In this document: positions 12,359-30,722 of the stretch, one piece after another
How positions within the stretch are numbered: position 1 is the first letter of the stretch
Layout of the letters: every line of letters starts with the position of its first letter
Source of the DNA: Halopiger xanaduensis SH-6
GTDB taxonomy: Archaea; Halobacteriota; Halobacteria; Halobacteriales; Natrialbaceae
Reading direction: 5' to 3'
Length of the DNA stretch: 64,000 nt
Assembly: GCF_000217715.1 (NCBI RefSeq)
Contig: NC_015666.1
Coordinates: forward strand, 3,298,270-3,362,269
Program-made: the position numbers and the translations under genes
Notes under the pieces: generated by a model
Database searches by the model: none
Told to the model about the DNA's origin: nothing
The model's input: the letters and a program-made list of their open reading frames with translations, nothing else

Positions 12359-12592
12359 ACCGATAGTGTGGACACTGCGGTAAGAAAACGTTTTATGGTC
12401 GATTCGACCGAGTTACGGGGCCACAATCGTGCAACCGGGGATTTCCGCCGGATTCGGAACGTCCCGACGCCCAGTACCGAGCGACTGCGAACCGGCGCGA
12501 GCCGAACGTGATCGGTGCGGAGAGATTCGTCGCCTCCTGACGGACGGATTCCGTAATAAAGAGTTTTAGTCGGGTCTTCCGTAGCGGAGGGT

Positions 12593-12937
12593 ATGACCGA
12601 GTACACTGTCGAGTTCGTCGGCACGGGTGAGACGATCACCTGTTCGGACACCGAGACAATTCTCAGCCGGTGTCTCGAGGAGGGGATCGCACAGGAGTAC
12701 TCCTGTCGCGTCGGGATGTGTCTGGCCTGTTCGGCCGAGATCGTCGAGGGTGATGTCACCCAGCCAGCAGCCCGCGCGCTCACCGAGGAGGAGGCCGAGA
12801 ACTACGCGCTGACCTGCATGGCGCGGCCGCAGTCGGATCTGAAACTGGACCGCGGGAAGTACCCGCCGAGCATCGAGGACGAGATCGACGCCGCGGGCGA
12901 GGGCGGTAGCGACGACCCTGCGGTCGCGGACGACTGA
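12593..12937 (+). CDS. 2Fe-2S ferredoxin (plant type)
   Basis: The 114-residue product has the cluster motif YSCRVGMCLACSA (Cys-x4-Cys-x2-Cys, about residues 38-47) and the fourth Cys in LTCMARP near 75. It lacks the long N-terminal halophilic insertion of the main haloarchaeal ferredoxin, so it is one of the smaller paralogues. The tail is Asp/Glu/Gly-rich. GGAGG sits right before the ATG. It may supply electrons to the divergent geranylgeranyl reductase, which is inference from position only. Confidence 0.92.
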   Translation: MTEYTVEFVGTGETITCSDTETILSRCLEEGIAQEYSCRVGMCLACSAEIVEGDVTQPAARALTEEEAENYALTCMARPQSDLKLDRGKYPPSIEDEIDAAGEGGSDDPAVADD

Positions 12938-13026
12938 GCGCCGTCGCGTCGCGGTGCTGCCGTCCTATCGCTTCGGTTTTCGTCTCCCTCGAGAGCCCAA
13001 ATTTTCGACCGTCGCCAGCCGGTTCG

Positions 13027-14217
13027 TCACCCGGTGACTGCACAGTTGTTCGGCCCGAGTTCCAGTTCGAACGCCGTCTCCGCGTCGACGTCTACCCGCC
13101 CGAGGTTCGCGGCCACGATGCGCTCGTGGTTGGCCGGTCGCGGCGGCCGGTCGTTCGTGACGTGCTCGACGAACTCGTCTTCGGCCATCGCAAACGCCTC
13201 GAGTCGGTCGCGCAGGTCGCCGAGCACGGCCGCGTACGTCCCGTCGCTGTCCCGCGGATCGGCGGCGTCGCTGTAGTGGCCCGGCGCGATCGTCGTCTCC
13301 GCCGGCAGTTCCGAAAGCGTGTCTTCGAGAGTCTCGTAGAACTGCCGAGCTGCCGCGGGCGCACCCTCGTCGCCGCGCTCGAGGTCCGGCCGGCCGACAC
13401 CCTCGAGGAACAGCGTATCGCCGCTGAACAGGACGTCGCCGAGCCGATACGAGAGCGACTCGGAGGTGTGGCCGGGCGTCGCGACGGCAGTTAGCGTCGC
13501 ATCGCCGACGTGGAGTTCGTCCCCGTCCTCGAAAGTCATAGCGTCGAACGCGAGCCCGCGGTCGCGAGCGCCTTCGGGGACGACGGCCGTCGCGTCGGTT
13601 CGGGATTCGAGCGCGCGGACGCCGCTGACGTGGTCGGCGTGAACGTGGGTGTCGACAGCGTATTTCAGCTCTGCGTTCCGATAGGCAACGTCCTCGGCGT
13701 AGCGGTCGGCGAACGCCCGAAGCGGATCGATCACCGCCGCCTCGTCGCCGCTGTAGATCGCGTAGGTCAGACAGCCGCTCGAGGGGCGGTCGTACTGGAC
13801 GACCGTCGCGGCCGAATCGCTCTCGTGATCGAGGCCGAGGTCGACCTCGAGTTCGCGGGCGACGTACAGGTCCGCCCAGGAGTCCATCCCGCCCGCCAGA
13901 TTCTGCGCGTCGATGCCCGCGTCACGGAGGAGATCGACGGCGTGGTCGCTGGCCTCGCCGCGGCCGCAGACCGCGACGATCGGTTCCTCGAGGTCGTCGA
14001 TGAGGTCGGTCACGCCGCCCGTCGCCTGGGCTTGGATAAACTTCATGTGCGGGATCTGTACGGCTTCGACGCTTTCGCCCTCGATGTGCCAGCGGTCGAA
14101 CTCGTCGCGGTCGCGGACGTCGAGGACGGTCAGCTCGTCGCCGGCGCGCAGCCGCTCGGCGAGCGTCTCGGGGGCGATCGTCGTCGGATCGTCGAGCGCC
14201 GCCTCGGTTTCGGACAT
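13027..14217 (-). CDS. Rhodanese-metallo-beta-lactamase fusion (persulfide dioxygenase-like)
   Basis: This 396-residue protein joins an N-terminal rhodanese domain (about 1-125, ETLAERLRAGDELTVLDVRDRDEFDRWH, catalytic Cys84 in VAVCGRGEAS) to an MBL-fold domain (about 140-370) with THVHADHVSG (His191, His193, Asp195, His196) and the later ATPGHTSES and GDTLFLEGVGRPDL segments. The MBL half resembles glyoxalase II and persulfide dioxygenases, so a role in oxidising glutathione-like persulfides or moving sulfane sulfur is likely. The rhodanese-first order is noteworthy because many known fusions have the reverse order. ATG 14217 is chosen since the upstream extension is basic. Confidence 0.9.
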   Translation of the reverse strand: MSETEAALDDPTTIAPETLAERLRAGDELTVLDVRDRDEFDRWHIEGESVEAVQIPHMKFIQAQATGGVTDLIDDLEEPIVAVCGRGEASDHAVDLLRDAGIDAQNLAGGMDSWADLYVARELEVDLGLDHESDSAATVVQYDRPSSGCLTYAIYSGDEAAVIDPLRAFADRYAEDVAYRNAELKYAVDTHVHADHVSGVRALESRTDATAVVPEGARDRGLAFDAMTFEDGDELHVGDATLTAVATPGHTSESLSYRLGDVLFSGDTLFLEGVGRPDLERGDEGAPAAARQFYETLEDTLSELPAETTIAPGHYSDAADPRDSDGTYAAVLGDLRDRLEAFAMAEDEFVEHVTNDRPPRPANHERIVAANLGRVDVDAETAFELELGPNNCAVTG

Positions 14218-14341
14218 ATCGCTGCATACGCCCTCGCGGCGGTTAAGCGCGCCCCCGCGGTCGCCGTCGCGGGTCCGGTCGCGATCGGGCGCGAACCGGA
14301 TCGAGACCAAAGTTCAACACGCACGCCGTGGTCGTGGGGGT

Positions 14342-14986
14342 ATGGACGCTGCCGATTTCCAGCGCGACCTCGAGGCGTCGAAGGACACCGAACTCGAGCG
14401 CCTCGCCTCCTCGAAGCTGCTCGTCGCGCTCACCGACGCGGATCTGACGGCGGAGACGGTACTCCGGATCGTGGCAGACGGCGAACGCGCCGCGGCGGAG
14501 ACGTTCGACGCGTGGACCGACGACGAGTCCCACGACGACGCGCAGGAACTGTTCGCCGAGTTTCGCGATCAGGAACGAGAGCACTGCGAGCGGGTCCTCG
14601 AGCTACTCGAGGGAGCGGACGGCGAGGCGTACGACCCCGACCCAGCAGGCGGTCCGATGCACGAACGGCTCCGGTCGCTCGAGGAGACCGTCCCGCGGCT
14701 GGGCGGGCTGGTCGGTCGCGCGCTGGTCACCGAGCGAACCCACCTGCAGGTCGTGAGCTTCTTCGTCAACGAGGGCGACGAGCGGCGGGCCGAGCAGTTC
14801 CGGGAACTACGCGGCGAGACGGCGACGCAGGGTGAGCGGGCGACCGCGCTGCTCGAGACGACGTGCGACGGGAGCGAGGACTGGGACCGTGCCGCCGCCG
14901 CTGCCGAGGACGTCGTCGACGCCGCGTACGACGCCTACGCGGGTTCGCTCGACGATCTCGGGCTCGATCCGAAGCCGATCTGCTGA
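14342..14986 (+). CDS. Rubrerythrin-like ferritin-fold protein
   Basis: The 214-residue helical protein fits the haloarchaeal rubrerythrin-family set beginning MDAADF and containing LASSKLLVALTDADLTAETVLRIVADGERAAAETF. Possible di-metal ligands are Glu residues in the first helix pair and DQEREHCERV (E-x-x-H near residue 78), followed by RTHLQVVSFFVNEGDERRAEQF. No rubredoxin domain is present, so it is not a complete rubrerythrin. Peroxide defence or iron handling is the family expectation. It is divergent from the rhodanese-MBL gene, with 124 bases between, and the two may share a role in redox stress. Confidence 0.75.
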   Translation: MDAADFQRDLEASKDTELERLASSKLLVALTDADLTAETVLRIVADGERAAAETFDAWTDDESHDDAQELFAEFRDQEREHCERVLELLEGADGEAYDPDPAGGPMHERLRSLEETVPRLGGLVGRALVTERTHLQVVSFFVNEGDERRAEQFRELRGETATQGERATALLETTCDGSEDWDRAAAAAEDVVDAAYDAYAGSLDDLGLDPKPIC

Positions 14987-15092
14987 TCGGCGCGGTAGCG
15001 TCGGCGAGAATTGAGAAATTGACTGTCGACGAATAGGAAAGAGAAAACGGGAAAAGGCTCGCCTCGAGGGGGAACCCCCTTTCGGAGCGGAA

Positions 15093-16271
15093 TCAGTCGA
15101 CGAAGTCGATGTCGTCGCCCTGTCCGGGTGCCTGCTGGCCGCTCATGTCGGGCTGGACGGACTCGCCCTCCGGACGCCCGTAGATCTGGGGCGATTCGAC
15201 GCCGGTGACGACGATCATCGTCCGCATGCTGCCCTCGAGGCTCTCGTCGATCGAGGTCCCCCAGATGATGCGGGCGTCGGGGTCGATGCGGTCGTAGATC
15301 TCCTCGACGACGCCCTCGGCCTCCTCGATGGCCATGTCGTTACCGCCGGTGACGTTGACCAGCGCGGAGTTGGCGCCGGAGATGTCGACGTCGAGCAGCG
15401 GCGAACGAAGTGCCGTTTTAACGGAGTCTTCGGCCTTGGCCTCGGAGTCGGCCTCGCCGAGGCCGATCATCGCGACGCCGCCGCGTTCCATGACCGTGCG
15501 GACGTCTGCGAAGTCGAGGTTGACGAGGCCGGGCTTGGTGATGAGTTCCGTGATGCCCTTCACCGAGCGCATCAGCACCTCGTCGCTGACCTTGAACGCC
15601 TGGCGGACCGGCAGTTTGCCGACCGAGTCGAGCAGGCGGTCGTTGGGGACGACGATGACGGTGTCCGAGACGTCGCGCAGGCGCTCGAGGCCGGCCTCCG
15701 CGTTGGTTCGGCGGACTTCGCCCTCAGCCGTGAAGGGCGTCGTGACGATCGCGATCGTCAGCGCGCCGGCCTCGCGGGCCGCCTTCGCGACGACGGGCGC
15801 GGAGCCGGTGCCGGTCCCCCCGCCGAGCCCGGCCGTGACGAAGACCATGTCGGAGCCGTCGATCGCGTCGTAGATGTCCTGCTGGCTCTCGAGGGCGGCC
15901 TCCTCACCGACTTGGGGAAGGGAGCCGGCGCCGCGGCCGCCGGTCTTCTCCTCGCCCATGAGGATCTTGGTGTCGGCGTCGATCTCCACGAGGTGCTGGA
16001 CGTCGGTGTTGGCGGCGACGAGTTTCGCGCCGTGGATGCCTTCCTCGTGCATTCGGTTGATCGTGTTGCCGCCGGCGCCCCCGCAGCCGACGACCGTGAT
16101 ATCGGTCTGGAGATCCTGGAGAACGTCTTCGAGTTCTTCGTCGGTCATCGTGCCGGACTGTCGGCCGGCGTCGTCGGCGGACTGGCCGCCCTGCGGGGCG
16201 TCGTCCGCGGGGGACTCGGCCGGGTCCCCGTCTTCGGCCTCGTCGATGGCGTCGTCGATGAGTGAGTCCAT
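15093..16271 (-). CDS. ftsZ1: Cell division GTPase FtsZ1
   Basis: The 392-residue tubulin-like GTPase has an acidic N-terminal extension ([16 protein letters not shown]) typical of haloarchaeal FtsZ1, [13 protein letters not shown] at about 62-74, the tubulin signature GGGTGTGS at 150-157 and the T7 loop [11 protein letters not shown] that completes the GTPase site of the next subunit. The C-terminus ends DDIDFVD. In haloarchaea FtsZ1 assembles first at midcell and helps recruit FtsZ2 and SepF. The leader before the ATG has a TATA-like GGTAATTATG near 16290-16300 on this strand. Confidence 0.95.
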
Positions 16272-23933: not shown

Positions 23934-23981
23934 GGCCGTTCGATCGGAGACGTTGGCAGTTCCTGCATCGTATCAGCCGAA

Positions 23982-23987
23982 TTTAAG
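23982..23987 (+). promoter_or_regulatory. TATA box of the HhH protein gene
   Basis: TTTAAG lies about 28 bases before ATG 24013, the spacing expected for a leaderless haloarchaeal transcript. Confidence 0.55.
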
Positions 23988-24012
23988 TGAAAGAGACGAC
24001 TATATTCGGATA

Positions 24013-24777
24013 ATGGCAATCCTCGAAAAGCTGAAGTCGTTGTTGGGACTCGACGAGTCCGACTCGGAGCCGCGACGCTCCCGCGAGGTCGGGGTCACGG
24101 TCGAACGCGAAGGATCGCGCGGGAGCGACCGGTCCGAATCGACGCCGGCGGACGAGGCCGCGGCGTCGACCGACTCCCCGACGGAGCCGGCCGAGGAGTC
24201 GGAGAAAGCGCCCGAACCGCCCGGATCGCCGGGTCCGAAGGAAACGGAGACGGACGCGGACGCGGACACGGCGCCGACCGAAGCGGAGACGGCCGACGCC
24301 GAGGCGGAGACCGACGAGGCCGACGCCGAACCCGAAACGACCGAGATCGACGAGGCCGAAGTCGCGATCGAAGACGCGGAACCGGACCGCGACGTGAGCG
24401 AGGGCGACGGTGCGGCCGCGGAACCGGACGCAGAGCCCGAACTCGAGGCCGAGGATGAGTCCGCACTCGAGGCGGAAGCCGAACCGGAAGCCGAGTCGAC
24501 CGACGAGTCGGCGGAGACCGAGAGCGAGGACGAGCCGGAACCGGAAGCCGAATCCGAACCTGAACCTGAACCTGAGCCGGAAGCCGACGAAACGACCGAA
24601 TCCGAATCCGTCGACGTCATCAAGGGCATCGGTCCCGCGTACGCCGACCGGCTCGCCGACGCCGGCGTCGAGACCGTCGACGAACTCGCGGCCGCCGACG
24701 CGGCCGACCTGGCCGAACAGACCGACATCTCCGAGAAGCGGATTCAGGGCTGGATCGACCGCGCCGAAGTCAGATAG
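24013..24777 (+). CDS. Glu-rich protein with C-terminal helix-hairpin-helix domain
   Basis: The 254-residue product has three parts: a short N-terminus ([17 protein letters not shown]), a low-complexity acidic tract at about 40-200 made of Glu, Asp, Ala, Pro and Thr (including an EPEPEPEPE run near 24555-24590), and a helix-hairpin-helix domain of the RPA-associated/topoisomerase type at about 200-254 ([52 protein letters not shown]). The last domain binds DNA or other HhH partners. The acidic tract would be a flexible, strongly charged linker. No function is assigned. Confidence 0.8.
24540..24590 (+). repeat. Low-complexity hexamer tract coding for Glu-Pro
   Basis: Repeats of GAACCT/GAGCCG/GAAGCC code for the Glu-Pro/Glu-Ala run of the acidic linker. 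Tandem hexamers of this kind can change copy number by slippage while keeping the frame. Confidence 0.6.
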
Positions 24778-27314: not shown

Positions 27315-28202
27315 ATGTCCGAGAAAACCGAACTCCTGTACCACGTCGACGGCGACCTCGTGCCCGCCAGCGAAGCGACCGTCAGCGTCGACGACCGCGG
27401 GTTCCGGTACGGCGACGCCGCCTTCGAGACGCTGCGGGCCTACGGCGGGACGATCTTCGCCTGGGGCCGCCACGTCGACCGCCTCGAGCGCACCTGCGAG
27501 GCGCTGTCGCTCGAGCACGGCCTCTCGACCGACGACCTCCGCGAGCGGATCGACGCGACGCTCGCAGCCAACGACCTCGCGGACGCCTACGTCCGCTTGT
27601 CGATCACCCGCGGCGTCCAGCCGGGGAAGCTGACGCCCCAACCCGAGGTCGATCCGACCGTCGTCGTCTACGTTAAGCCGCTTCCCCGCGGCGGTCTCGA
27701 GGGCGAGCGGGTCTGGGACGAGCCGGCGACGGTTCGCACGGTCGAGACGAGACGGATGCCCGACGAGGCGATTCCGGCCGGCGCGAAGACGCACAACTAT
27801 CTGAACGGGATTCTCGCCCGGGCGGAGCTTCGAAATCGCGACGAACCCGCCGATGAGGCGCTCATGCGCGACCTCGAGGGACACGTCGCCGAAGGAGCGA
27901 CGAGCAACCTGTTTTTCGTCCGCGACGGCACGCTCCATACGCCGACGGCCGACGGCCCGGTGTTGCCCGGCATCACGCGCGCGCTCGTCCTCGAGTTGGC
28001 CGCCGAAGGAGGAATTTCAGTTCGAGAGGACCGGTGCGACCTCGAGGACGTGCTCGCAGCCGACGAGGCGTTTCTGACGAACCGGACGTGGGAGCTGCGA
28101 CCGGTCGCGACGCTGGACGGCCGCGAAATCGGCGGCGGCCCGGTGACGGAGCGACTCTCGAGGTTGTACGACGAGCGCATCGAGGACGCCTGTTACCGGT
28201 AG
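27315..28202 (+). CDS. pabC: Aminodeoxychorismate lyase (class IV aminotransferase)
   Basis: The 295-residue PLP enzyme has the class IV layout: RGFRYGDAAFETLRAY near the front, RLSITRG, KTHNYLNGILARAEL with the PLP-binding Lys near 158, EGATSNLFFVRDG and a C-terminal LPGITRALVLELAAE. It would split aminodeoxychorismate to p-aminobenzoate and pyruvate for folate-type cofactors. Branched-chain or D-amino acid aminotransferases share these motifs, but the tight pabB-pabA-pabC order favours PabC. Confidence 0.88.
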   Translation: MSEKTELLYHVDGDLVPASEATVSVDDRGFRYGDAAFETLRAYGGTIFAWGRHVDRLERTCEALSLEHGLSTDDLRERIDATLAANDLADAYVRLSITRGVQPGKLTPQPEVDPTVVVYVKPLPRGGLEGERVWDEPATVRTVETRRMPDEAIPAGAKTHNYLNGILARAELRNRDEPADEALMRDLEGHVAEGATSNLFFVRDGTLHTPTADGPVLPGITRALVLELAAEGGISVREDRCDLEDVLAADEAFLTNRTWELRPVATLDGREIGGGPVTERLSRLYDERIEDACYR

Positions 28203-28335
28203 ATCGGTCGCGTCCTGACCGACGATTGTCGACGGCTGCCGATCGTGACACCGGAGCAACAATTATGTGCTGGATTGGCATATACTCAATCGGTTCGCAC
28301 CGCCGCACGTCCACCATCGATCAGACGATCGAACG

Positions 28336-29517
28336 ATGACCGACGATATCGATCTCGAGAGCACGTACGAACGCCGATTAGACGAACGCATTCGAACCAT
28401 CGCCGGGACGACGGCGGCGACGATCAGGGACGTCATACGAGGGTCGCAGGGGGCGTTTCCGACGGTCGTGTACGATCGGTTGGAGGCCCTCGGCCTCGCG
28501 GAGTCGCTTCGGGAGGGGCGTCGCAATCCGGTTGCTCGTCCTGGGTCGCTTTGCAATCGCGAGCCGGAACTCCACCCGCTGGACTTCGAGTGGTACTTTA
28601 CGGCGGAGACGACGACCGCCATCGCGACAACGGTCGCCGAGAGCGCCGCCGGCCCCGTTTTGTGTCTCGGTGCCCCGACGGTCGCGTTCACCCTCGCGGA
28701 GCGAGGGGTACCCGTCACGCTGGTCGACCGAAACGAACTGATCGAAACCCGCTTCGCTCCCCGGTACGACACCCTGACGTTCGCCAATCGAGACATCGGT
28801 GAGCGGCTCGCCCTCGAGGAGACCCACTCGGTCGCGTTCTTCGATCCGCCGTGGTATCCGGACGATACGGCGGCGTGGCTGCACCGCGCCGCAACCAACG
28901 TCGCCCAGGGCGGCCGGATCTACTTCGTCCTCTTTCCGCCGCTGGTCCGCCCGGCCGCCCGCGCGCAACGCGAGCGATTGCTCGCGACGGCCGAGCAACT
29001 CGGATCGGTCGCAGTCGACGACGGGGCGATCACGTACCGCACGCCCCCGTTCGAACGGGAAGTGCTCCGGGAGGAGGCAGTTCCCGTGGTCCGCGATTGG
29101 CGCCGCGGGGATCTCGTTCGCATCGACGGCGTTTCTCTTTCTCCCGATGCCCTTTCCGACCCGCCGTCGACGAGCAGCGGACCGGCGTGGGAGACGTTCG
29201 TCGCCGACGGGCGAGTGGTGAAGGTCCGACAGGAGACCGCCTCGGATGCCGGCGCCGTTCTGTCCCCCGTCGAGGGCTGTGACGGCTACCTACTGCCGAG
29301 CGTGAGCCGTCGCGACGCCCGGCGTCGGAACGTCGATCTGTGGACCTCTCGTAATCGCGTCGCCTCGGTCGGCGATCGCGAGGCCGTTGCGGAAGCGCTA
29401 CGCAGGCTCGAGACGGGGGCGGATCTGACGGCCCTGCGGTCGACGTCCTTCGAGGCCTCGATCTCCGACCGGGAGCGCGACCGACTGGTCGATCGACTCC
29501 GAACGATACTGGCGTAG
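28336..29517 (+). CDS. Class I methyltransferase with DPPW motif (N6AMT2/EEF1AKMT1-like)
   Basis: The 393-residue protein has a helical N-terminus (1-75), then LDFEWYFTAETTTAIATTVAE (about 82-102), the SAM-strand GPVLCLGAPTVAFTLAERGVPVTLVDRNE (about 106-134) and FFDPPWYPDD with DPPW at 170-173. The order of an aromatic WY..ET segment, a CLG(A/C)P loop and DPP(F/W) resembles the PF10237 family (first called N6-adenine methylases, now known in eukaryotes as eEF1A lysine methyltransferases). About 180 residues follow without a recognised domain. It stands alone, 133 bases after pabC and convergent with the next gene. Substrate is unknown: DNA adenine or a protein lysine. Confidence 0.65.
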   Translation: MTDDIDLESTYERRLDERIRTIAGTTAATIRDVIRGSQGAFPTVVYDRLEALGLAESLREGRRNPVARPGSLCNREPELHPLDFEWYFTAETTTAIATTVAESAAGPVLCLGAPTVAFTLAERGVPVTLVDRNELIETRFAPRYDTLTFANRDIGERLALEETHSVAFFDPPWYPDDTAAWLHRAATNVAQGGRIYFVLFPPLVRPAARAQRERLLATAEQLGSVAVDDGAITYRTPPFEREVLREEAVPVVRDWRRGDLVRIDGVSLSPDALSDPPSTSSGPAWETFVADGRVVKVRQETASDAGAVLSPVEGCDGYLLPSVSRRDARRRNVDLWTSRNRVASVGDREAVAEALRRLETGADLTALRSTSFEASISDRERDRLVDRLRTILA

Positions 29518-29582: not shown

Positions 29583-30722
29583 TTAGTCGTTCGACTCGAG
29601 GGCCGACCGCGCCGACCCGTCCGCGCGGTTCGCCCCGTCGGACGTCGCCGGCGCGTCGATCAACGCCCGGTCCGTCCCCGACAGTGCCAGCGCGAAGTCC
29701 GAACCGAACGCCGACGCCGGCGTCTGGAAGCCGTCCGGAACCGAACCGCCGCCCGCTCGCCCTCGATCCTCGAGCACGCGCTGGGCTGCGATCACCGCGG
29801 ACTCGGCGGTCAGCGCGTACGGGTCGGGCGTCCGCAGTCTGGCGCGGGCGCGCCGTCCAGCGTCGTCGGTGACTTCGCCCCAGACGACGGCGTGGCCGTC
29901 GGCTGCGTTCCGGTTTTCGAGGCCGTCGACGCGAGCGTCGACGAGCCGCTTCAGGCCGCGTTCGACGGCCCGGCGCTCGAGCAGCCAGCCGACCGAGTCG
30001 ACGGCCGACAGGAGCCGATCGGCCCACGGCGGCGCGGCGGCGTAGACCTCGATCGTCTCGATGCCCGTGGTGTGGGCCGCGGTGACGACGTCCCCCCACG
30101 GGATCGTGACGGCGTGTTCCGGACCCTCCCCAAAGTCGATCTCGCGGTTGCGAAACGCCGTCGGCACCTTCACGAGCCGCCCGTTTCGGCGGACGACGCC
30201 GCCACTACCGAGTTGCTCGACGATCGTCCGGGCAGTCCCTCGCGAGAGCGATCCGGTTCCCTTGATCCCGAGCGCGAGTTCGTCGGCCGACGGGAGTTGG
30301 GCGTGGAGAAAGGCGGCCAGACAGTCCGAGGGAACGACGTCGAAGCCGACGCCCGGAAGCATCGTGATTCCCGCCTCGCGCGCGGTCGCGTCGCGCTGGC
30401 GCAGGCGTTCGAAGACCGCGACCTCGCCGGTGATGTCGAGGTAGTCCGTCCCCGACTCGAGGCAGGCCTCGAGCAGCGGATCGACCGTCTCGACGAACGG
30501 CCCCGCGCAGTTGAGGACGGCGTCGAACCCCTCGAGGCGGGCGGCCAGCGACCCGTCTTCGAGGGCGAACGCGCGGCCGTCGACGCCGAGTCGGTCGGCC
30601 AGCCGCGCGACGGCGCGGCGGTCTCGTCCGGCGACGGTCGGTGACCCTCCTCGAGCGACGGCCTCGCGGGCGATCAGCCGTCCCGTGTCGCCGTACGCGC
30701 CGTAGATGAGAAGGGAATCCAT
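29583..30722 (-). CDS. Saccharopine dehydrogenase-like NAD(P)-binding oxidoreductase
   Basis: The 379-residue product opens with LLIYGAYGDTGRLIAREAVARGGSPTVAGRDRRAVARLADRLG, the NADP-binding fold of the saccharopine dehydrogenase-like family. FDAVLNCAGPF, GTDYLDITGEVAVFE and MLPGVGFDVVPSDCLA follow and are typical of trans-acting enoyl reductase-like members. The C-terminus is Gly/Ser/Asp-rich and disordered. Lysine biosynthesis is unlikely; related proteins reduce polyketide or lipid double bonds. Confidence 0.82.
   Translation of the reverse strand: MDSLLIYGAYGDTGRLIAREAVARGGSPTVAGRDRRAVARLADRLGVDGRAFALEDGSLAARLEGFDAVLNCAGPFVETVDPLLEACLESGTDYLDITGEVAVFERLRQRDATAREAGITMLPGVGFDVVPSDCLAAFLHAQLPSADELALGIKGTGSLSRGTARTIVEQLGSGGVVRRNGRLVKVPTAFRNREIDFGEGPEHAVTIPWGDVVTAAHTTGIETIEVYAAAPPWADRLLSAVDSVGWLLERRAVERGLKRLVDARVDGLENRNAADGHAVVWGEVTDDAGRRARARLRTPDPYALTAESAVIAAQRVLEDRGRAGGGSVPDGFQTPASAFGSDFALALSGTDRALIDAPATSDGANRADGSARSALESND

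Follow-up and report, generated by a model that had tools for sequence, protein, structure and literature searches.

Gene, reading frame and surroundings

The window, by which we mean the whole 64,000-nucleotide stretch of Halopiger xanaduensis SH-6 DNA that was analysed, contains a methyltransferase-like gene set between a pabC-like gene and a convergent saccharopine-dehydrogenase-like gene. The features on which the analysis rests are as follows (window coordinates).

27315–28202, + strand: pabC-like gene (putative name) upstream of the methyltransferase gene, bounding the insertion on the left; all 12 genomes searched have it
28336–29517, + strand: methyltransferase-like gene, 393 amino acids, from the open reading frame and its translation, with aligned orthologues
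28354–28488, + strand: predicted N-terminal helical part (residues 7–51), possibly winged-helix-like
28573–29130, + strand: class I AdoMet-dependent methyltransferase core (residues 80–265), from the PF10237 stretch (86–200), the model and its structural matches
28663–28677, + strand: motif I, CLGAP, where BpsA has GDDD (alignment A1; hhalign pairs the two)
28843–28854, + strand: motif IV (Post II), DPPW (residues 170–173), in 15 of 15 rows of A1
29296–29361, + strand: C-terminal family motif PSVSRRD..R...DLWTS.NRV (residues 321–342; alignments A1 and A2)
29583–30722, − strand: convergent saccharopine-dehydrogenase-like gene (putative), right edge of the insertion; adjoins pabC without a methyltransferase gene in loci L101 and L105

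The reading frame opens with ATG at 28336 and its stop codon ends at 29517. An earlier note had singled out the segments WYFTAET, CLGAP and DPPW, and all three occur in that order in the 393-residue protein, at residues 86–92 (28591–28611), 110–114 and 170–173. Its description of the gene as standing alone after pabC is also accurate: pabC ends at 28202, and the next gene is convergent. The frame is intact in six distinct orthologues (L001, L004–L007 and L009), which are 54–57% identical to the window protein across 392–393 residues. Third codon positions vary more than the other positions among the seven haloarchaeal genes, and each of their 21 pairs has a dN/dS below 1 (about 0.19–0.49). Because the frames are open in orthologues of this identity and dN/dS is below 1, this is a real gene rather than a chance frame. 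About 50 bases upstream of the start codon, at 28280–28285, stands ATATAC, which could presumably be the TATA box of the gene's own promoter. Elsewhere in the window, an open reading frame at 23953–24777 putatively encodes an extended acidic stretch of low complexity that leads into a short helix-hairpin-helix-like end.

PF10237 and other profile matches

In Pfam the window protein has a single match, to PF10237, the family of EEF1AKMT1/N6AMT2 and yeast Efm5 to which the earlier note had likened it. Residues 86–200, which include motif I and DPP(W/Y), align to positions 8–119 of 166 (E = 1.7e-4), and the score of 21.8 bits lies under the gathering cut-off of 23.2 bits. On score and coverage we rule out PF10237 as the family of the window protein and keep it as a distant relative; the proposed likeness thus stands for the core but not as membership. 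Unlike PF10237 proteins, the window family has extra N-terminal helices, a conserved C-terminal half and a patchy, mobile distribution, and positions 120–166 of the profile find no counterpart in it. Of the 15 family members, nine reach E ≤ 0.1 with PF10237 (the best 9e-6), and a homologue from a gut phage scores 25.9 bits, over the cut-off. Searched genome-wide, the profile scores above the cut-off in five of nine genomes, namely five of the seven haloarchaeal genomes that bear the gene, and has no match at E ≤ 1 in the other two gene-bearing genomes, the window's own included. Half of the control genomes (7 of 14) also match at E ≤ 1, never above the cut-off; because that limit is lax, the control says little about matches at 1e-4.

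Other libraries add little. Among PADLOC DNA-methylase models, mad2 of the MADS system shows a weak likeness confined to the core (residues 120–221, E = 1e-3), and no other such model matches at E ≤ 10. NCBIfam yields no match, and with mad2 at E = 1e-3 as the sole DNA-methylase hit, the profiles do not place the protein among the type I–III or orphan DNA methylases of restriction–modification. PF01861, the BpsA family, has no Pfam match to the window protein and matches one of 15 family members (E = 0.0064). The best match in a profile search of PDB sequences is HI0767, a putative methylase (E = 2.3e-4) that we take to be RsmD-like.

Predicted fold and comparison with BpsA

The predicted model of the window protein has a mean pLDDT of 69.9, with a good core (67–93 for residues 91–240) and a poor C-terminal half. 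Its Rossmann-like fold, together with motif IV and a degenerate motif I, CLGAP, marks it, at the level of a predicted structure, as a member of the class I AdoMet-dependent methyltransferase superfamily; AdoMet is presumably its methyl donor. Three helices (residues 7–23, 30–36 and 42–51; pLDDT blocks of 62–82 for residues 11–60) form the N-terminal part, which aligns to the N-terminal part of BpsA and, according to the alignment, is missing from the short homologues of about 310 residues.

Structural comparison points to BpsA, the branched-chain polyamine synthase. In Foldseek against the PDB, the Pyrococcus 'predicted methyltransferase' 2qm3 and six BpsA chains take the first seven places (E = 3e-12 to 3.5e-10). 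VIA-align gave Z ≥ 5 for 1000 of 1000 compared chains; its first six entries are five of BpsA (6j28, 6j27, 5xnc, 5xnf and 5xnh) and 2qm3, with Z of 17.5–20 across 236–247 residues. The BpsA entries start at model residues 5–12 and reach 328, and 2qm3 reaches 277. The top alignment (Z 20.0, 247 residues, rmsd 4.0, model residues 8–328) thus takes in both the N-terminal helical domain and the Rossmann domain of BpsA. Next comes METTL5, the 18S rRNA m6A methylase, with Z 16.1 over the core. For a model of a short homologue (L018), the first eight matches are seven BpsA chains and 2qm3; this model is not independent of the first because it was built from the same ten sequences. In a viral structure library, the best 50 matches listed are for the most part generic methyltransferases or portions of large proteins. 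The structural matches listed for the two models include no PF10237 protein, which excludes nothing. The earlier note had named two findings that would tell against its proposal, best structural matches in another methyltransferase class and an absence of PF10237 similarity: the first was obtained, in that the best and longest matches are to BpsA and then METTL5, whereas the distant PF10237 similarity persists.

Sequence profiles are less specific. Aligned with hhalign to 25 BpsA open reading frames, A1 is collinear across 247 columns with a probability of 16.5% and a score of 33.8, compared with at most 23.4 in 200 column shuffles, 19.8 for the reversed profile and 17.6 for a second control. 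A METTL5-like control of 11 sequences scores 25.5 with A1 and 31.5 with A2 (14.4 and 19.5 when a stray 270-residue row, L089, is included), and BpsA scores 33.0 with A2. Given the low probability and these control scores, the profiles do not single out BpsA; with the short-form alignment A3 the BpsA score falls to 20.0, within the shuffle range, so the likeness rests mainly on structure.

The resemblance does not extend to the catalytic features of BpsA. GDDD, described in the excerpted text of PMC12979288 as indispensable for catalysis, occurs in all 25 BpsA frames, whereas the window protein has GAPT at that position. Most rows of A1 (11 of 15) have G[AT]P[ST] there, the others having GVPT (L016), GTPG (L011), GSPR (L017) and ASPL (L002). 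The acidic C-terminal carrier cluster of BpsA is also missing: the last 15 residues hold one to four acidic residues in the 15 family rows, three of them in the window protein, compared with 5, 5, 5, 5, 5 and 3 in the BpsA rows printed. Moreover, DPPW stands where the aligned BpsA row has DPVE, identity is 14–19%, and the window family has an additional conserved SRRD...LWTS segment. The missing GDDD and acidic tail lead us to reject BpsA itself as the function.

A broader version of this idea is that the protein is a BpsA-like small-molecule transferase, whose acceptor would be a polyamine or similar amine and whose transferred group would be either methyl or, with decarboxylated AdoMet as donor, aminopropyl; the substrate of BpsA is a small polyamine and its donor decarboxylated AdoMet (PMC12979288, in part). 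The lead of BpsA and 2qm3 in the Foldseek lists for both models, the long structural alignments from residue 5–12 to 328 in five of the six leading entries and an hhalign score above every shuffle speak for it. Set against these are the replaced GDDD, the absent acidic cluster, the low hhalign probability with a METTL5-like control close behind, and the PUA/ASCH partners of the bacterial homologues described below, which would be unexpected for a polyamine enzyme. We therefore consider a small-molecule acceptor of this kind quite improbable.

Conservation of the C-terminal half

Bacterial homologues are 22–29% identical to the window protein and share its C-terminal half with the SRRD...LWTS motif. 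Invariant in the 15 rows of A1 are W86, P114, DPPWY, R205, Y234, P237, F239, E240, L260, W285, S324, R326 and S338, with V323, R325 and R330 nearly so; L335 and W336 are invariant in the ten rows of A2. L019, which lies outside A1, has DSPW instead of DPPW. The earlier note had described the C-terminal half as lacking a known domain: it indeed has no Pfam match, but it is a conserved feature of the whole methyltransferase family rather than an oddity of this one protein. It was modelled only within full proteins, at low confidence in both predicted models, and for this reason we claim no new fold for it. In a tree of 19 rows, the six haloarchaeal proteins included form one group (support 91/97), with weak deep branches.

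Haloarchaeal distribution and insertion site

A protein search of 125 genomes from the same family found the gene in seven, which belong to three of 29 genera; the listed genome of the same genus (G001) lacks it. Among 392 genomes sampled across the phylum, a profile search found three: the window's genome, G036 and a third by a match of just 59 positions (1.7e-4). A scan of named genomes located the gene in Natrinema salsiterrestre and in a Paceibacterota MAG. At the corresponding site in G001 (L101), pabC and the convergent saccharopine-dehydrogenase-like gene lie about 150 bases apart with no methyltransferase gene between them, an empty site; the same two genes are at most about 90 bases apart in L105. 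Third-position GC is 0.79 in the methyltransferase gene versus 0.85–0.91 in six neighbouring genes. Relatives carry the gene at other sites: when 16 window genes were sought at seven loci, the methyltransferase was the sole one recovered, with the exception of two partial histidine-kinase-like matches in L027. Loci L001 and L028 look like one region, and five loci of one genus (L023 and L025–L028) have flanks in common. We read the haloarchaeal gene as a horizontally transferred single gene, in a direction that the tree leaves unsettled.

Neighbouring regions provide a separate observation. At L023, from a Natrinema-group genome, type II DNA-methylase genes flank the gene on either side at a distance of about 5 kb (1164–2216 and 12506–15118; MTase_II, E = 1.7e-177 and 4e-46), and DNA matching the first of these also occurs in L025 and L028. 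This proximity may be chance in a variable region.

The distribution bears directly on the lysine target in elongation factor 1A that the earlier note had suggested. As an archaeal EF1A lysine methyltransferase, the protein would be the counterpart of EEF1AKMT1/N6AMT2, in keeping with the PF10237 similarity of residues 86–200, the scores above the cut-off in the genomes of five orthologues and the DPPY motif of eEF1A-KMT1 (PMC10238732, in part). The window protein itself, however, falls under the PF10237 cut-off, its family has an additional C-terminal half that is conserved, and presence in 7 of 125 genomes is too patchy for the modification of a translation factor. All of these organisms, as is well established, make EF1A. 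Because so few of them have the gene and because bacterial members of the family sit in mobile gene sets, the EF1A target is unsupported and we regard it as very unlikely.

Two partner sets in bacteria, plasmids and phages

Homologues outside the haloarchaea occur on plasmids, on phage-type contigs and, in one case, on a MAG contig. By tblastn, 11 of 72,556 plasmid records and one of 50,697 phage records, an unverified one from human faeces, have a methyltransferase homologue, as do two viral contigs. Further searches of viral contigs returned nothing with two single proteins and, with A3, only the two contigs already known; the methyltransferase–phosphoesterase pair of L018 has no high-identity match in E. 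coli genomes. Among 379 Patescibacteria genomes, nine matched at E ≤ 0.001, at full length only in the MAG of L002 and over 56–112 positions in the others. The bacterial census is thus a small one, comprising the plasmid, phage and viral collections, one narrow genome scan and the Patescibacteria sample. Eight of the 11 plasmids are typed as conjugative. One contig has Psu and primase genes alongside the methyltransferase gene, and we take it as a P4-like satellite; another has tail and endolysin genes.

All 15 non-haloarchaeal homologues that span the core and the C-terminal half (11 plasmid records, the phage record, two viral contigs and the MAG) are accompanied by one of two partner sets. 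In type A (L010, L011, L013, L016, L045 and L002), a radical SAM gene precedes the methyltransferase gene, and genes for an ASCH protein and a kinase follow. The radical SAM proteins were grouped by tblastn and alignment; ASCH was identified from annotation or a Pfam match in L011, L013, L045 and L002, and in L010 and L016 it is assigned by position alone. HTH-type and DUF4186 genes are annotated upstream in L011, L013, L016 and L045; L010 there shows similarly sized and ordered genes labelled hypothetical, and L002 has instead genes for an IrrE-like peptidase and two MazG-family proteins. Pfam assigns the Tolypothrix set to DUF6932, HTH/IrrE, DUF4186, radical SAM (22.3 bits, under the cut-off of 29.5), ASCH and AAA_18. 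The Tolypothrix kinase matches the deoxynucleoside monophosphate kinase phrog_139 (E = 3.4e-9), and there are weak matches to viperin (pVip, 3e-5) and viperin kinase (VakA, 5e-6), the former limited to residues 91–165 of the radical SAM protein.

In type B (L012, L014, L015, L017, L018, L019 and L044), a gene for a PUA-like/calcineurin phosphoesterase overlaps the methyltransferase gene at all seven loci read. The phosphoesterase was assigned by Pfam in L012, L017, L018 and L044 and by alignment in L014, L015 and L019. Its motifs DxH, GD, GNHD and HGHxH, presumably those of the metal site, are invariant in eight rows. PADLOC gives it a weak match to 'Effector Endonuclease' (E = 1e-9). Because the PADLOC matches of both methyltransferase and phosphoesterase are weak, we reject a known defence system as the identity of the pair.

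For the radical SAM protein and the close phosphoesterases, the linkage also holds from the partners' side. Homologues of the radical SAM protein occur in seven plasmid records, all within the 11 with a methyltransferase; in AP018239.1 and NZ_CP045394.1, judged by search positions only, the two matches lie less than 300 bases apart. Phosphoesterase homologues occur in 16 plasmid records, of which the nearest four (49–100% identity, the query's own included) are the remaining four of the 11, and the other 12 (24–25%) have no methyltransferase match. The phage record, both viral contigs and the MAG each carry a partner too.

Several neighbouring genes deserve mention in their own right. In L012, a gene for a GajB-type helicase lies directly upstream (E = 8e-181). 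On the rhizobial plasmids of L012, L015 and L044, genes for a 533-residue adenylosuccinate-synthetase-like protein, a DUF7002 protein and a YfbR-like protein stand beside the methyltransferase–phosphoesterase pair; the first has a weak N-terminal P-loop match, the YfbR-like match is slightly below the cut-off, and the assignments come from Pfam in L044, from annotation, length and order in L012 and from open reading frames in L015. One of the 12 records without a methyltransferase, an E. coli IncHI1B plasmid (L046, 4992–7474), carries overlapping genes for a PUA-like metallophosphoesterase and a HAD hydrolase (PADLOC 'Hydrolase', E = 4e-56). Behind them lie genes with Hachiman HamA and helicase annotations; the overlapping pair is possibly another two-gene module.

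Neither the phosphoesterase nor the radical SAM protein was found in the haloarchaeal genomes with the gene. Alignment searches with these two partners gave no match in the seven genomes, with all positive controls recovered (3 of 3 and 2 of 2, respectively). PF24405 was found in none of nine genomes, but its control was not found anywhere either. Because these two partners are absent from the seven genomes, the function of the bacterial module is not simply transferable to haloarchaea.

These gene sets bear on two further alternatives. A stand-alone methylase of the METTL5/RsmD type, acting on bases of rRNA or tRNA, would explain the METTL5 structural match (Z 16.1), HI0767 as the best PDB sequence match and the METTL5-like profile score of 31.5 with A2. 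We think it a rather slim prospect, as the patchy spread, the mobile settings in bacteria and the linked phosphoesterase are unlike housekeeping rRNA methylases. In another possibility, the methyltransferase would act with the radical SAM and dNMP-kinase-like proteins to make a modified deoxynucleotide, whose triphosphate would enter DNA or stop foreign polymerases in the manner of viperin products. The dNMP-kinase-like partner, the two MazG-family genes in L002, the module's neighbours in L044 (and, from annotation or frame reading, in L012 and L015) that resemble adenylosuccinate synthetase and YfbR, and the weak pVip and VakA matches are consistent with a role of this kind. However, the viperin match covers a short stretch of the radical SAM protein, the two-gene form lacks its own kinase gene, and searches of the seven haloarchaeal genomes found no radical SAM partner; we consider a free deoxynucleotide product unlikely.

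A model for a mobile methyltransferase

We favor, with evenly balanced confidence, an explanation in which the protein is an AdoMet-dependent N-methyltransferase of an uncharacterised family that belongs to mobile base- or nucleotide-modification modules in bacteria and is solitary in haloarchaea. A winged-helix-like N-terminus, a Rossmann core with DPPW and a conserved C-terminal half with SRRD...LWTS would make up the enzyme. In bacteria, it would serve as the modifying enzyme of compact mobile modules, acting with a partner of the base-reading type, either a PUA-like/calcineurin phosphoesterase fusion from an overlapping gene or an ASCH protein in company with a dNMP-kinase-like protein and a radical SAM enzyme. 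The reaction would most likely be methylation of an exocyclic amine of a base, in DNA, RNA or a free (deoxy)nucleotide, and the partner could then distinguish marked from unmarked targets, as in restriction–modification or toxin–antidote pairs. In haloarchaea, the gene would have arrived horizontally without either partner, and purifying selection would have preserved it as a lone methylase.

Its methylation target is probably a base or nucleotide and not a translation factor, as suggested by the METTL5 likeness and by the PUA/ASCH, dNMP-kinase-like and phosphoesterase partners. PUA, ASCH and EVE domains are described as readers of modified bases (PMC7641849, in part), and ASCH and AAA_17 genes occur in operons of a modifying enzyme in the same excerpted source. 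By contrast, DPP(Y/F/W) cannot decide for an adenine target, because eEF1A-KMT1 carries DPPY and methylates lysine (PMC10238732, in part). Mobility and the neighbouring genes suggest a possible role in defence or addiction.

Two known arrangements invite comparison. The (PIN)-GNAT-EVE operons (PMC7641849, in part) likewise encode an ASCH protein beside a modifying enzyme, frequently accompanied by an AAA_17 family ATPase, whereas the modifiers here are a methyltransferase and a radical SAM enzyme, Tolypothrix adds DUF6932, HTH/IrrE and DUF4186 proteins, and the module proteins scanned have no EVE, PIN or GNAT match. Orphan DNA methylases of Halobacteria (PMC6471742, in part) similarly lack a restriction partner; some of them are described as highly conserved, whereas the window gene is patchy and has mad2 as its sole DNA-methylase profile match. 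The Tolypothrix insertion, DUF4186 and ASCH genes included, has been catalogued with no function given for those genes in the excerpt available (PMC9679502). As far as the libraries and the accessible parts of the open-licence literature searched extend, this mobile methyltransferase family and its two gene sets are undescribed.

More tentatively, the methyltransferase and its overlapping PUA-like metallophosphoesterase may constitute a new two-gene system for immunity or addiction, carried by satellites, phages and plasmids, of which a second form would consist of radical SAM, ASCH and dNMP-kinase proteins with the methyltransferase. A BpsA-like layout could then have been turned from polyamine synthase to base or nucleotide methylase, or the reverse, and the solitary haloarchaeal copy might be protective or anti-restriction. 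If right, these proposals would tie a family with no strong match in any library searched to two recurrent mobile gene sets, one of them a two-gene unit small enough for direct tests of phage defence or addiction. A methyltransferase whose nearest solved folds are polyamine synthases would likewise bear on the kinship of aminopropyl- and methyltransferases. For the haloarchaea, the analysis counsels caution in assigning EF1A methylation from a PF10237-like match.
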